From assembly GCA_945890485.1 (NCBI GenBank), contig CAMDCN010000003.1, forward strand, positions 248,001 through 312,000: 64,000 bases of DNA. Direction: 5' to 3'. Origin of the DNA: Candidatus Sulfopaludibacter sp. SbA3. Lineage in GTDB: Bacteria > Acidobacteriota > Terriglobia > Bryobacterales > Bryobacteraceae. Below are positions 32,650 to 39,800 of the stretch, in pieces (positions within the stretch are counted from its first letter, which is position 1; each line of letters opens with the position of its first letter). Below the pieces are notes generated by a model. It made no database searches, was not told the origin of the DNA, and saw only the letters and a list, made by a program, of their open reading frames with translations. The position numbers were made by a program, and so were the translations under genes.

Positions 32650-34194
32650 ATGCCCGCCCGCCTCCTTGCCATCCACGGCTCCCTCTCCGGCGACGCATTC
32701 CCAATAAACGACCCGGAAACCATCATCGGCCGCGATCCCGATGCCGCCATCGTCCTCGAAGGCGTCGGCGTCGCCTGGCGTCACTGCTCGCTCGCGGGCC
32801 GGACTTTGACGGACCTCCGCTCCCCCGAAGGCACCCTTGTCAATGGCCTCCGCATCCGCCAACACGAACTCGACCCCGGCGACCACATCACCATCGGCCC
32901 CCACCGCTTCGTCTTTGAAACTGAAGTCGCCACCCGAGCCCCGGCCCTCCTCGAAGCCTGCACGATGATCTTCCTTTTTCGTGCCCTCCTCGCCGGCCGC
33001 AACCCCATCATTGAGCGCCATCTCGCCCAGCTCCTCGGCTGCGCCGCCATCCGCTTCGAACTCGGCCCCGGGCCCACCGAAGTCGCCTTCCATCCCGTGG
33101 ACCGCATCGCCACTGTCCCTGTCATCGTCCGCGGCGAACGCATCGGCGCCGTCCGCCTCGATTATCCCGGTTCACCCCCCGACGACGAATCCCTCGGTGC
33201 GCTCGCCACCCTTGCTACGGTCGCCCTCGAAAGCCAGCTCCACCTGGAATCGTTAAAGTCCGAAAACGCCATCCTCCGCGAGCAGCTCTCCGGCATCATC
33301 GGCCAGAGCCCCAACTGGCTCCGCGTCCTCAGCCTCGCCCAGCGCGCCGCCCCGACAGAAGCCACCGTGCTCCTCCTCGGCGAAAGCGGCACCGGCAAGG
33401 AGGTCATCGCCCAAGCGGTCCACCGCGCCAGCCGCCGCGCCAACGGTCCCTTTCTTGCGCTCAACTGCGCAGTCTTCGGCGAAAGCCTCCTCGAAAGTGA
33501 ACTCTTCGGCCACGAGAAAGGCGCCTTCACCGGCGCGGTCGACCGCAAACCCGGCAAGCTCGAGCAAGCCGCGGGCGGCACGGTGTTCCTTGACGAAGTC
33601 GGCGAACTCGCCCCACAACTCCAAGCCAAATTCCTCCGCGTCCTCCAGCAGCGCGAGTTTGAGCGCTTAGGCGGCCGCCAGACCATCAAGCTCGACGCCC
33701 GCATCATTGCCGCCACCAACCGCGACCTCGCCGCGGAAGTAAAAGCCGGCCGCTTCCGTGAAGATCTCTATCACCGCCTCAACGTTGTGACGCTCCACAC
33801 GCCGCCTCTGCGCGAGCGAAAGACGGATATCCCTGCTTTAGCCGCCCACTTCCTCGCCCGCGCCGAACGCCCCATCGACGGCATCTCCCCCGCCGCCATG
33901 CGCCTGTTGATGGACTACGATTGGCCTGGCAACGTCCGCGAGCTGCAGAACGCCATTGAACGCGCCGCGGTCCTCGGCACCACCCACCTGCTCGAACCCG
34001 ACGACCTCCCCGAAGCGCTTCTCGACCCCGCCAAACCCGCCGCCGGCTTCGACGACGCCAAACGCCAAGCCATCATCGACGCTTGGCGCCAAGCCAGCGG
34101 CGACTATAAAGAAGCCGCCGCTCTGCTTGGGATCCACCCCAACTCACTCCTTCGCATGATCCGCCGCCTCGACCTCCGCAGCCAACTCCGCTGA
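32650..34194 (+). CDS. FHA-domain sigma-54-dependent transcriptional activator
   Basis: 514 aa. An FHA domain at residues 1-90 ('[12 protein letters not shown]', 'G-T-L-V-N-G') should read phosphothreonine from a Ser/Thr kinase. Residues 100-200 look GAF-like. The AAA+ domain has Walker A G-E-S-G-T-G-K-E (244-251) and the sigma-54 contact loop G-A-F-T-G-A (291-296), then '[10 protein letters not shown]' and a Fis-type HTH at the end ('[19 protein letters not shown]'). It diverges from two small secreted-protein genes with a -24/-12 promoter. A broken copy of its 3' part lies at 39200-39800. Confidence 0.92.
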
Positions 34195-34210: not shown

Positions 34211-34969
34211 CTACAGTCCGGCTAACTCGGCCTCCATCGCCGGCAGCAGATCCGTCTCCTCGTCCGTCTCCGCATCACAAAACGAGAACCGCCGCACCGA
34301 TACCCAGGACCCCTCACACCGGTCCGTATTGATCAGGATTCCGCCCACCAGAATCACCCATCGCGTTGGGTAGTTCGTCCGATCCGCCAACAGGCTCACC
34401 CGTCCGGCAATCGCCTCGTACATCACCTCTGTCGCTTCCTGCAACGGCTCTTTCGCCGCCCGGATCCGGGCCTCCGCCTGCACAAACAGTTGCTCAATCT
34501 GGTTCTGCTGGTAGTCCAGTTCGCTCACCTCTCCTGGCTTGATCTCTCCCCGCAACAACTTGCCCAGCGCCGCCTTCGCCGCGCCGCAACATGCCGAACG
34601 CCCCTCCTGTCCCGGCCGGACAATTTCGCCAAACTCGCCAGACTTCGAAATCCCTACATGCGGTCCATGAAATACGAACACGGCTCCGCCATCGGGCACG
34701 TGATGCGCAAACGCACCCATCCCCGTCAGTCCCGTAAACGGAAACCCATTCAACCCGCCCATCCGGAACGGCCCCAGCATCTCTAGCGCCCGCTTCGGAT
34801 ACTGAATCGAATTCAGATCATCGCTGCAGATACTGTCGGCCGCCATAATCTGCTCCGGCCGCAGTCCCAACTTCCGCTCCAGCATCGTCAGGAACAGGTC
34901 CACCGCCTGGTTCGTTGTCGTCGCATTCGGGTAGTACCCTTTGATGGTTGTCTCGTATGCAGATCCCAT
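34211..34969 (-). CDS. LCIB-like (theta-type) beta-fold carbonic anhydrase
   Basis: 252 aa, no signal. The order of motifs is that of the Limiting-CO2-inducible protein B/C domain: 'I-K-G-Y-Y-P-N-A' at the start, C48-S-D50-D in 'S-I-C-S-D-D', 'F-P-F-T-G-L-T-G-M-G-A-F-A-H-H' (H89/H90), 'G-P-H-V-G-I', then 'S-A-C-C-G-A' (C127/C128). Cys-His-Cys should hold zinc and the Asp two residues after C48 matches the family's C-x-D. These enzymes interconvert CO2 and bicarbonate. A 4-nt gap follows the bestrophin gene. The C-terminal 100 residues are less typical. Activity is inferred. Confidence 0.75.
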   Translation of the reverse strand: MGSAYETTIKGYYPNATTTNQAVDLFLTMLERKLGLRPEQIMAADSICSDDLNSIQYPKRALEMLGPFRMGGLNGFPFTGLTGMGAFAHHVPDGGAVFVFHGPHVGISKSGEFGEIVRPGQEGRSACCGAAKAALGKLLRGEIKPGEVSELDYQQNQIEQLFVQAEARIRAAKEPLQEATEVMYEAIAGRVSLLADRTNYPTRWVILVGGILINTDRCEGSWVSVRRFSFCDAETDEETDLLPAMEAELAGL

Positions 34970-34973
34970 AAGT

Positions 34974-35948
34974 TCACATCAGAATCTCATTCGCTGGCTG
35001 CAGCGCCGCCGGCGGATTCTTCTCCCCCAAATACTCAAGTAAGTCGATCTCAATCGTCCGGCTCAGCGCCGTAATCGGGACATCATTCGGGCTCCCTTCA
35101 AACGGGTTCTCCGAAACACTGCCAATTTTGTCCAGCGTATGAATGATCCACGCGAGCACGACACAGATCGGAATATTCAGCCAAACCAAGCCCATCCGCG
35201 CGAACTCCTCCACCAAGCCCAGCGGCGCCAGCAAAATGAAAATCCAGACGAACAAATGATTCAGCGTGGCGAACTGTCGCGGATACGGATAGTTCTTGAT
35301 TCGCTCACATTTGCCCTGCGCCTCCACCAGCGCCAGCAGCATCCGCTCCATCTCCACATGCCGGAATTCCGACAACGCCCCCGCCGCGTGCAAACCCCGC
35401 AACGTCTCGCCTTGCCGCGCCAGGATGTGCGCCGCCAGGTTCTTCTTCCCCAATACTGCCGCCGCTTCGGCTTCCGGCAGCCGCTCCCTTAGCTCCGCCT
35501 CGATTTTGCCGTCCCATTCCGCCACGCTGTAGCGCTTCCGGTACTCCTCGTTCTCGCGGCGCCGCATGTTCTCCCAACTCCGCGGCTCCCGCAATTGGTA
35601 ACGCAACGCCGTCAACCAAGCCAGATGCCGTCGAATCAGCTCCTCCCGTACTGCCCGCTCCCCCACAAAGTCCAGCGTCAACATAGCCCACCCGCGGCTG
35701 TTGTTCACGATGCCGCCCCAAATCTGCCGTGCCTCCCAAAGTCTTCCGTACGAAGCGTTGTTCTTAAAACCCGTCACGAACGCCACCGCCGTACCGATCA
35801 TCGCAATTGGCTGCCATGGCAACGCTGGCCCCGACCCCGTCAGTCCATGCACGGCCGTCGGCGCGGCCGCTATCACCGCAAAAACCGCGGTCTCCCGCCA
35901 CGTCCACGGCAGGATATGACTAAGTGGATACTTGGCCCCTGTAAACAT
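34974..35948 (-). CDS. Bestrophin-family anion/ion channel
   Basis: 324 aa. N-terminal helices include 'F-A-V-I-A-A-A-P', then the family signature 'F-K-N-N-A-S-Y-G-R-L-W-E-A-R-Q-I-W-G' (residues 61-78; bacterial forms usually read N-x-A/S-Y-D-R-W-W-E-A-R-K-L-W-G). Two later helices ('F-V-W-I-F-I-L-L-A-P-L-G-L-V', 'I-C-V-V-L-A-W-I-I-H-T-L') and the conserved 'E-N-P-F-E-G' calcium-clasp-like segment follow. Bestrophins are pentameric chloride/bicarbonate channels in eukaryotes; a characterised bacterial one passes sodium. Its stop lies 4 nt before the LCIB-like gene, and the sulfatase gene is 28 nt upstream. Confidence 0.9.
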   Translation of the reverse strand: MFTGAKYPLSHILPWTWRETAVFAVIAAAPTAVHGLTGSGPALPWQPIAMIGTAVAFVTGFKNNASYGRLWEARQIWGGIVNNSRGWAMLTLDFVGERAVREELIRRHLAWLTALRYQLREPRSWENMRRRENEEYRKRYSVAEWDGKIEAELRERLPEAEAAAVLGKKNLAAHILARQGETLRGLHAAGALSEFRHVEMERMLLALVEAQGKCERIKNYPYPRQFATLNHLFVWIFILLAPLGLVEEFARMGLVWLNIPICVVLAWIIHTLDKIGSVSENPFEGSPNDVPITALSRTIEIDLLEYLGEKNPPAALQPANEILM

Positions 35949-35976: not shown

Positions 35977-37776
35977 TCACCGCCCCACCGGCGGCAGCGC
36001 CTGGTTGTAAGTGCCCCGCCGTCCCGCCGGAGCCTCCAGCAGCGGCAGCGCCCCGTTCCTGGCCGCCTCCGCCCACCACAGCTTCTTTAACTCCTCCAGC
36101 TTTTCCGGATGCTTGGCCGCCACGTCCTCTGTCTCCGCAAAGTCCGCCGCCACATGATACAGAGCCCAGTGGTCGCTCTCAAAGCTTGTGCCCGGGGTAT
36201 GGATGCCCACCGCCTTCCATCCGCGATGCCAGATACCCCGGCTGCCCCAAAGCTCGTAATACTGGCGGTCCCGGGGATCCAGGCTCTCTGGATCGGCAAA
36301 CGTCTCTCGAATACTCTTCCCCTGCATCGGAATCTGACACACCCCTGCGAACACCCCCGGGGCCGCCAACCCCGCCAGATCCAGCACCGTCGGCGTGATG
36401 TCGATCACATCCACGAACTGCCGCCGCAGGCCGGACTTCTTCACCTCCTTCGGCCACGAAAACACGAACGGAGTCTGCACCCCGCCCGCATGGGGCCACA
36501 GCTTGTAGAAAGGAAACGGTGTGTTCGAGACCCATGCCCACGGCCGCGGATACAACGGTTGCGTCGTTGGCGAGCCCATCTCGTCCAGGTGCGTAAACAT
36601 CTCCGCTGCCGTCGTCGGGTCCCCGTACGGTCGGCGGAAGCCGCCCTTGGTTCCCGCTTCCGGCGCCCCGCCGTTGTCCGACATCAGGAAGATCGCGGTG
36701 TTCTCAAACATCCCCTGCGCCTTTAAGTACGCCACCACCCGGCCCACCTGCTCATCCGTATGCTCCAGAAACCCCGCGTAGGCCGCCATGAAGCGCGCGT
36801 TCACCGCCCGCTCCTCCGCGCTCAAATCCGTCCACGCCGGGTCACCCGGGTTTCTCGCCGCCAACTTCGTCCCCGCCGGAATCACGCCCAGCGAAAGCTG
36901 CCGCTCATATCGCTCCCGCCGGATCGCATCCCAGCCTTTCTGATACGTCGACGCATACCTCTCGATGTATGGCTTCGGAACCTGAATCGGTGCGTGTGTC
37001 GCGCCAAACGCGACGTACAAAAAGAAAGGTTTGTTAGCGTCCGCCGCCCGGTGCTCGTCCAGCATCCGCACCGCTTGATCCACGATATCCACCGAGAAGT
37101 GGTAACCCGCCCGCTCCGGCCGCGCAATCGTGTGGTTGTCCTCAAACAAATCTGGTATATATTGATCCGTCCACCCCGACAGGAATCCGTACCACCGGTC
37201 GAACCCCTTCTGTAGCGGCCAATGTGTCCGCGCCCCGCCTGCCTTCATATCCGCCGCCGGAACCAGATGCCACTTGCCCACGCCGTAGGTGCTATATCCG
37301 TTCGCCCACAGAATCTGCGCCACATTTGCCGCCGCCGGCGTCACCCGCCCCCGCGAATGCGGATAGCCTTGGTCGGCTCCCGCCAACTCCTTCATCCCCA
37401 CCGCATGGCTATTGCGCCCGGTCAACAGCGCGGCCCGCGTCGGCGAGCAGATCGCCTTCGTGTGGAAGTTGTTGAAGAGCAACCCCCCGGCCGCCAGGGC
37501 ATCCATATGCGGCGTTGCAATCTCCGACCCGTAGCAATGCAAATCGGAAAACCCGGTGTCGTCGAGCAGAATGTAGACGACATTCGGACTACCCGCCCGC
37601 GCCGCGCGAACCTCCAACGGGGCCGGTTCGGACTCTGCCGCCGTCCGGCCAATCTTCCCTTGAAAGCGCTCCGCCGGTGGATTTGCGCAGGCTTCTTGAG
37701 CATGGCCAGTCCTGCTGGCCGCCGCGCCAATAGAAAGGCAATGCAGCCACTGACGGCGACTAAACCTGCTGACCAT
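35977..37776 (-). CDS. Arylsulfatase, formylglycine-dependent
   Basis: 599 aa. A Tat-like start 'S-R-R-Q-W-L' plus hydrophobic stretch indicates export. The calcium-binding aspartates are in 'Y-I-L-L-D-D-T-G-F-S-D'. C110 in C-S-P-T-R is the cysteine converted to formylglycine, followed by 'A-A-L-L-T-G-R'. 'Y-G-V-G-K-W-H-L', 'F-G-A-T-H-A-P' and 'M-S-D-N-G-G' complete the active site. Hydrolyses sulfate esters, perhaps from polysaccharides. The chain maturase is not in the window. Same strand as the downstream bestrophin and LCIB-like genes, so a shared transcript is possible though the functional link is unclear. Confidence 0.92.
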   Translation of the reverse strand: MVSRFSRRQWLHCLSIGAAASRTGHAQEACANPPAERFQGKIGRTAAESEPAPLEVRAARAGSPNVVYILLDDTGFSDLHCYGSEIATPHMDALAAGGLLFNNFHTKAICSPTRAALLTGRNSHAVGMKELAGADQGYPHSRGRVTPAAANVAQILWANGYSTYGVGKWHLVPAADMKAGGARTHWPLQKGFDRWYGFLSGWTDQYIPDLFEDNHTIARPERAGYHFSVDIVDQAVRMLDEHRAADANKPFFLYVAFGATHAPIQVPKPYIERYASTYQKGWDAIRRERYERQLSLGVIPAGTKLAARNPGDPAWTDLSAEERAVNARFMAAYAGFLEHTDEQVGRVVAYLKAQGMFENTAIFLMSDNGGAPEAGTKGGFRRPYGDPTTAAEMFTHLDEMGSPTTQPLYPRPWAWVSNTPFPFYKLWPHAGGVQTPFVFSWPKEVKKSGLRRQFVDVIDITPTVLDLAGLAAPGVFAGVCQIPMQGKSIRETFADPESLDPRDRQYYELWGSRGIWHRGWKAVGIHTPGTSFESDHWALYHVAADFAETEDVAAKHPEKLEELKKLWWAEAARNGALPLLEAPAGRRGTYNQALPPVGR

Positions 37777-39199: not shown

Positions 39200-39800
39200 C
39201 TCGCCCCGCAGTTGCAGGCCTAGTTCCTTCGCGTCCTGCAGCAGCGGGAGTTTGAGCGCCTTGGTGGCCGCCAGACCATCAAGCTCGACGCCCGCATCAT
39301 CGCCGCCACCAACCGGGACCTCGCCGCCGAAGCCAAGGCCGGCCGTTTCCGCGAAGATCTCTATCACCGCCTCAACGTGGTGACGCTCCACACCCCGCCC
39401 CTGCGCAAGCGCAAGACGGATATTCCTGCCTTAGCCGCTCGCTTTCTAGCCCGCGCCGAACGCCCCGTCGACGGCATCTCCCCCGCCGCCATGCGCCTGC
39501 TGATGGACTACGACTGGCCGGGCAACGTCCGCGAACTCCAAAACGCCATCGAGCGCGCCGCCGTCCTCGGCACCACCCGCCTGCTGGAGCCGGACGACCT
39601 CCCGGAGGCGCTGCTCGACCCCGCCAAGCCTGCCGCCGGCTTCGAAGATGCCAAGCGCCAAGCCATCCTCGCCGCTGGCCTGGCGCCAGGCCAGCGGCGA
39701 CTATAGGGAGGCTGCCGCCCTCCTCGGAATCCATCCCAACTCACTCCTGCGTATGATCCGTCGCCTCGACCTCCGCGGCCAACTGATCGGATCCAACTAA
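39200..39800 (+). pseudogene. Truncated, frameshifted copy of the FHA sigma-54 regulator
   Basis: Matches 33606-34194 closely for its whole length, including 'Q-Q-R-E-F-E-R-L', '[10 protein letters not shown]' and the Fis HTH. FHA, Walker A and the GAFTGA loop are absent. An AAA (Lys) codon of the intact gene is TAG at 39221-39223, and a 4-nt insertion in GCT-GGCC-TGG near 39675 shifts frame so that the HTH is unreadable. The tail differs (ends I-G-S-N rather than L-R), so the source may be a paralogue rather than a direct copy. Not functional as an activator. Confidence 0.85.

Follow-up and report, generated by a model that had tools for sequence, protein, structure and literature searches.

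Does the adjacency of a bestrophin gene and an LCIB-type carbonic anhydrase (CA) gene in a bacterial genome reflect a shared function, and if so, which one? The question is raised by two genes in a 64,000-nt stretch of DNA from Candidatus Sulfopaludibacter sp. SbA3 (the window), which an earlier, sequence-only reading had interpreted as a minimal bicarbonate/CO2 module.

Identity of the two gene products

Both genes lie on the reverse strand, where the stop of the bestrophin frame (34974-35948 (-), 324 aa) is separated from the start of the LCIB frame (34211-34969 (-), 252 aa) by a 4-nt gap (34970-34973 (-)), exactly as the sequence-only reading had described. A sulfatase gene (35977-37776 (-)) is located 28 nt upstream of the bestrophin gene, on the same strand as the pair. 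In a second genome, G458, the gene upstream of the bestrophin–LCIB pair (locus L033) is an aminotransferase gene and no sulfatase is found there, so it is the pair, and not the sulfatase, that the two genomes have in common. Elsewhere in the window, a sigma-54 regulator gene at 32650-34194 appears to be duplicated in part: an open frame at 39377-39706 (+) resembles, by eye, a partial second copy of the regulator's C-terminal part. A search of the complete window genome returned one LCIB and two bestrophins, together with three matches to PF00484 (187, 174 and 51 bits); LCIB is therefore not its sole anhydrase. One beta-CA of this genome adjoins a SulP gene (L219).

The 252-aa protein matched the LCIB_C_CA profile (PF18599) with an E-value of 4.3e-63 (213 bits versus a cut-off of 25), covering positions 3-221 of 223, and its closest sequence relatives in the PDB were 6kfs (E 9e-31) and PtLCIB4 (E 5e-28); NCBIfam profiles gave zero matches. 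Its AlphaFold model (mean pLDDT 94.1) was matched by Foldseek to PtLCIB4 (5b5y, E 1e-21, TM 0.80 by query length) and 6kfs (TM 0.84 by query length), followed by LCIB (E 6e-12) and LCIC (E 1e-10), with classical beta-CAs far lower, starting at E 1e-4. By family membership and predicted fold, the protein is thus an LCIB-type (theta, beta-CA-like) carbonic anhydrase, in agreement with the LCIB/LCIC domain that had been recognised from its motifs. No N-terminal signal was seen by eye, and the enzyme is for this reason presumed to be cytoplasmic.

Conservation of the putative zinc site was assessed in an alignment of 24 bacterial LCIB proteins, one of them from the window. The candidate ligands C48 (codon 34826-34828 (-)), H90 (34700-34702 (-)) and C128 (34586-34588 (-)), which we take to be zinc-binding from the role of these positions in the LCIB family, are kept in 23, 24 and 23 of the 24 rows, respectively, and D50, which completes the C-x-D motif with C48, is kept in all 24. 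H89 (18/24) and C127 (16/24) are less conserved than H90 and C128. The C-x-D, H-H and C-C motifs put forward by the sequence-only reading therefore stand as C48/D50, H90 and C128, but not as regards H89 and C127, and a Cys-His-Cys site, the absence of which would have spoken against that reading, is present and looks intact, as judged from these candidate residues. In the PDB alignment, with numbering counted by hand, H90 pairs with the residue changed in the H88A entry of PtLCIB4 (His) and S49 with that changed in the S47R entry (Ser), presumably zinc and activity residues. The sole LCIB among the 24 without C48 and C128 (L051, which coincides with L069) adjoins a beta-CA gene: it lies directly downstream of it, behind a Na+/H+ antiporter gene (L069:5103-6696), and is perhaps a non-catalytic partner of the neighbouring beta-CA.

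The 324-aa protein matched the bacterial/fungal family Bestrophin_2 (PF25539; E 1.7e-53, 182 bits versus a cut-off of 27). This family was used because the older bestrophin family PF01062 was uninformative, giving no matches even with controls. NCBIfam returned only a sub-threshold SLATT match. The closest solved relative was KpBest (4wd7), both by PDB sequence search (E 7.5e-24) and by Foldseek (E 6e-13) with a single-chain AlphaFold model (mean pLDDT 93.6); a 'Bestrophin-like protein' chain (7ek1) matched weakly in the sequence search (E 2e-6). Seven residues (F61, Y67, R69, W71, E72, R74 and G78) are invariant across 22 aligned bestrophins, which bears out the family signature previously placed at residues 61-78. 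The first gene product is accordingly, as had been proposed, a bestrophin by family and predicted fold, and hence a predicted ion channel.

Recurrence of the pair and exchange of the anhydrase

LCIB is rare in the window's phylum, occurring in 2 of the 396 genomes drawn, window genome counted. Both LCIB-bearing genomes among the 101 drawn from the window's family carry the pair; they are the window genome and G458, which belongs to another genus, and LCIB was absent from two other searched genomes of the window's own genus. In draws centred elsewhere, LCIB was present in 18/395 genomes from the class of Dyadobacter (the draw's centre included), six of them with the pair, in 4/194 from the phylum of a Sericytochromatia genome, and in 11/229 from the class of Methylobacter, only two of these being strong matches. 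When named genomes were searched with the window's LCIB protein, 14 loci were obtained, and tblastn searches of 72,556 plasmid and 50,697 phage records found no LCIB match at E 1e-5. With an inclusion cut-off of 80 bits on a custom profile, 37 non-redundant LCIBs were counted; the nine Methylobacter-class genomes with weak matches (E 3e-6 to 3e-4) are outside this count and the LCIB tree.

Several LCIB-like frames outside the pairs deserve a description. The nine Methylobacter-class genomes contain frames of ~380-430 aa with weak, repeated LCIB matches (best 28 bits; L077-L086, L106:5294-6574), which may form a remote branch of the family. Another genome of the window's phylum carries a divergent LCIB domain near the C-terminal end of a 535-aa frame (L034:7245-8849), with no bestrophin in its 16-kb neighbourhood. 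The phylum of the Sericytochromatia genome provides an FHA–LCIB fusion beside a Na+/H+ exchanger gene (L087:5409-6560) and an FAD/NAD reductase frame that continues into an LCIB domain in which a stop is encountered (L089:4201-6216). Three unpaired LCIBs of another clade (L063, L064 and L066), with proteins beginning MLQRKF, are found near CobW-type GTPase genes (L064, L066) or near genes for MerC, a FUR-family regulator and DUF1826 (L063), neighbours that suggest control by limitation of a metal, perhaps zinc.

A bestrophin gene adjoins LCIB in 10 of the 37 cases, and 27 are unpaired. The carriers are the window genome, G458, two Dyadobacter, Hymenobacter polaris, G673, G693, G573, G515 and G745, spanning the window's phylum and Bacteroidota; a bestrophin 2.4 kb from LCIB in Flammeovirga was not counted. 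An arrangement first noted from this genome alone is thus recurrent, extending to a second genus of the family and to Bacteroidota. LCIB lies downstream of the bestrophin gene on the same strand in nine pairs and upstream in one. All ten paired LCIBs fall within one clade of 16, with modest support (bootstrap 86, SH-aLRT 89), and the next large clade, with 15 members including Flammeovirga, contains no paired LCIB.

The window genome and G458 group as sisters in the bestrophin tree (SH-aLRT 91) and in the LCIB tree (93/81), and pairwise distances of the two proteins are correlated (Mantel r 0.79, permutation p 0.0015, n = 9 pairs; r 0.68, p 0.010 when one Dyadobacter is removed). The tenth pair, G745, is marked as paired in the LCIB tree but was left out of the bestrophin tree and of the Mantel test, its bestrophin frame being a 170-aa piece. 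Co-inheritance of the two genes is the simplest reading of these comparisons. Genes beyond the pair mostly differ between carriers (flanks covered 1.5 kb per side for L002 and L019-L021). An Ion_trans_2 channel gene, presumably of the K+-channel type, precedes bestrophin–LCIB in L054 and L055, and a Na+/H+ exchanger gene does so in L057 (genome G573, where the only beta-CA match is partial, at 25.7 bits). A candidate bestrophin–LCIB fusion in G515 (L040/L058) was rejected, as its 582-aa LCIB frame overlaps the bestrophin in another reading frame.

We then considered classical beta-CAs as neighbours of bestrophins. The phylum draw of 396 genomes contained 40 non-redundant bestrophins from 41 places (G094 (L146) was merged with G163 (L147), their last 200 residues being identical): 24 had a beta-CA within 300 nt, one had LCIB (the window) and 15 had neither. 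These 24 cases are not independent, since 20 of them form one clade. Among the matches listed for the class of Dyadobacter, which reach to about E 3e-55 and from which no class rate is drawn, few bestrophins adjoined a beta-CA (2 among the 30 loci given, 3 among 36 chosen regions). The 14 named LCIB genomes hold 38 bestrophins, three adjoining LCIB and two a beta-CA. Taken together, 41 of 151 bestrophin entries, which are not a random sample as LCIB loci were sought, are flanked by an anhydrase at 300 nt or less (31 beta-CA and 10 LCIB). Of the 31 beta-CAs, all 13 that were scanned matched PF00484, as did a further beta-CA at 609 nt in L207; the remaining 18 of the 31 were called with a custom profile. 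The beta-CA gene is on the same strand upstream of the bestrophin in 21/31 and downstream in 7/31, and downstream and convergent in 3/31. At two of the bestrophin–beta-CA loci (L091, L092), genes of the NADH dehydrogenase/Mrp antiporter membrane-subunit family lie alongside.

A tree of 146 bestrophins, obtained by a quick search with SH-aLRT support only, omits five pieces shorter than 250 aa (L041; L176 twice; L196 twice); 106 of its rows have no anhydrase neighbour within 300 nt. The beta-CA label requires nine changes on this tree, eight of which are forced by well-supported branches, compared with 28 when labels are shuffled. From 18 beta-CA matches across ten genomes of several thousand genes each, we estimate that a beta-CA would adjoin a bestrophin by chance in ~0.1% of cases. 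One beta-CA pair (L101, genome G500) has its bestrophin nested in the clade of 11 rows that holds the window and G458 (SH-aLRT 99); here the beta-CA gene, overlapping the bestrophin gene by 1 nt, is downstream, the place held by LCIB in six clade members. The remaining four rows have neither anhydrase in view, L180 among them being at a contig end. Given this nesting, the anhydrase partner seems exchangeable, and the 'minimal module' of the sequence-only reading is too narrow a description, as related bestrophins pair with a beta-CA instead.

Proposed role and competing explanations

The pore neck of the window bestrophin bears on its selectivity. Based on an alignment to KpBest counted by hand, the neck consists of T53-F57-F61 (35766-35792 (-)), T-F-F compared with I-I-F in KpBest, with Phe at the middle position (F57) as in eukaryotic bestrophins. 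According to excerpts of PMC8496536, KpBest is a Na+ channel with an I-I-F neck, its I66F change moves selectivity towards Cl-, and HCO3- permeates all human bestrophins. The window protein may therefore be regarded as having an anion-type neck, and is putatively permeable to HCO3- or Cl-. Middle-neck Phe occurs in 30/146 bestrophins overall and, with two changes on the tree, is a clade trait. A link between this Phe and CA adjacency was rejected: ten independent pairs showed no difference, leaving nothing beyond clade membership.

We propose, with a probability of about 0.6, that bestrophin and LCIB form a bicarbonate-handling unit, a channel plus an exchangeable anhydrase, serving net HCO3- exit and pH control. 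The LCIB-type enzyme would interconvert CO2 and HCO3- in the cytoplasm, and the bestrophin would act as an anion channel passing HCO3- across the membrane. Respiratory CO2 would be hydrated inside, HCO3- would leave passively and the proton would be retained, so that CO2 would be disposed of and the cytoplasm acid-loaded, a form of pH control. We infer the outward direction from the passive nature of channels and the normally negative cell interior. Related bestrophins would do likewise with a classical beta-CA, so that the functional unit would be the channel with 'some' anhydrase. The genes for cation channels and for a Na+/H+ exchanger beside some of the pairs are consistent with ion and pH balance, pH balance being a plausible role for the pair. 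The enzyme and the bestrophin may also be in physical contact.

The main rival explanation reverses the flow, and we consider it unlikely. Here HCO3- would enter by the bestrophin and the anhydrase would make CO2 or balance the pools for carboxylases, as a heterotrophic equivalent of a CO2-concentrating step. Such uptake would be in keeping with the genes beside other LCIBs, namely an Sbt_1 gene (Na+-dependent bicarbonate transporter family; L009:5920-7859) and a SulP permease gene (L013:4268-6690), and with algal BST1-3, proposed as HCO3- carriers in excerpts of PMC6708349. However, a passive anion channel would work against the usual inside-negative potential, which also counts against the anaplerotic uptake entertained by the sequence-only reading, and inspection by eye recognised no carboxylase or RuBisCO gene among the listed neighbours of the pairs, a minority of which were run against Pfam.

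It is quite unlikely, in our assessment, that the bestrophin is instead a cation (Na+) channel like KpBest, with the anhydrase aiding pH and ion balance and no HCO3- passing through the channel. The Na+ channel reported for KpBest (PMC8496536, in excerpt), the closest solved relative, is a precedent, and the middle neck residue is Ile, Val or Leu in 26 of the 31 bestrophins paired with a beta-CA; yet in all 25 members of the larger clade to which the window bestrophin belongs this residue is Phe, the very change that shifts KpBest towards Cl-.

We find it highly improbable that the substrate of the LCIB-type enzyme is a different small molecule, for example COS or CS2, as is the case for some relatives of beta-CAs, with the bestrophin passing the product. 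COS and CS2 hydrolases do appear in the Foldseek list (3vqj, E 0.03; 3teo, E 0.04) and a sulfatase gene precedes the window pair, but the LCIB/PtLCIB4 fold match is far better, the pair in G458 is preceded by a gene other than a sulfatase (L033), and a beta-CA occupies LCIB's place in L101. Accidental adjacency of genes with unrelated functions, to which the sporadic occurrence of LCIB and the 27 unpaired cases might point, is already disfavoured and very improbable, given 10/37 pairings with the same relative order in nine, a chance expectation estimated at ~0.1% per locus (two to three bestrophins in several thousand genes), and the second coincidence that the beta-CA exchange would require.

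Relation to known systems

Bacterial gene pairs of bestrophin and anhydrase are undescribed in open-access titles and abstract openings, among the matches listed. In its excerpted text, a 2026 survey of microbial anhydrases (PMC13098186) describes most of the rarer classes, theta included, as thought to be mainly restricted to diatoms and protozoa, and the words bestrophin, LCIB and operon are absent from its main text. It appears that the bacterial bestrophin–LCIB pairing and the exchange of anhydrase type are undescribed, the families themselves being known. No settled native role for bacterial bestrophins was found in the portions of the open-access literature covered; being found time and again beside carbonic anhydrases of two kinds, they acquire a testable substrate (HCO3-) and a testable partner. 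Very tentatively, several bacterial bestrophin clades might represent the channel half of an ancient bicarbonate unit, physically coupled to a beta or LCIB anhydrase, which the algal LCIB/C–bestrophin system re-uses or descends from, although we would bet against this broader view. The small bacterial pairs offer a setting in which to study how LCIB and bestrophins might make contact and be regulated, as has been proposed for algae, of interest for the engineering of CO2-concentrating mechanisms.

Each half of the pair has its own known counterpart. The window LCIB shares its fold, C-x-D motif, His positions and a Ser at the S47-like position (S49) with PtLCIB4 (5b5y) and 6kfs, at ~30% identity, but is bacterial, with a putative activity. 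PtLCIB4, presumably a diatom protein, was reportedly found to be active by Jin in 2016. The window bestrophin has its predicted fold and pore-helix signature in common with KpBest and other bacterial PF25539 bestrophins, and differs from KpBest in its T-F-F rather than I-I-F neck, in ~25 extra residues between about 121 and 151 (by sequence alignment) and in its linkage to an anhydrase gene.

As for the combination, SulP–carbonic anhydrase pairs and fusions are a known type that likewise places an anion transporter beside, or fused to, a carbonic anhydrase, but the transporter is a carrier and not a channel, and the enzyme a beta-CA and not LCIB; one of the LCIB pair carriers, G693, itself has SulP and beta-CA fused in one frame (L221). 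Closer to the window arrangement are the bestrophin–beta-CA pairs, with the same channel family beside an anhydrase and both genes on the same strand in 28/31; they differ in having a classical beta-CA, most often upstream and in 10/31 downstream. The algal LCIB/LCIC and BST proteins are chloroplast proteins encoded by separate nuclear genes. The pyrenoid CO2-concentrating mechanism of Chlamydomonas, with LCIB/LCIC and BST1-3, resembles the window in joining an LCIB-family protein to a bestrophin, and LCIB/C has been reported to interact with BST1 and BST3 (PMC6708349, in excerpt), whereas the window presents two adjacent bacterial genes, whose products are putative contact partners, and no pyrenoid.
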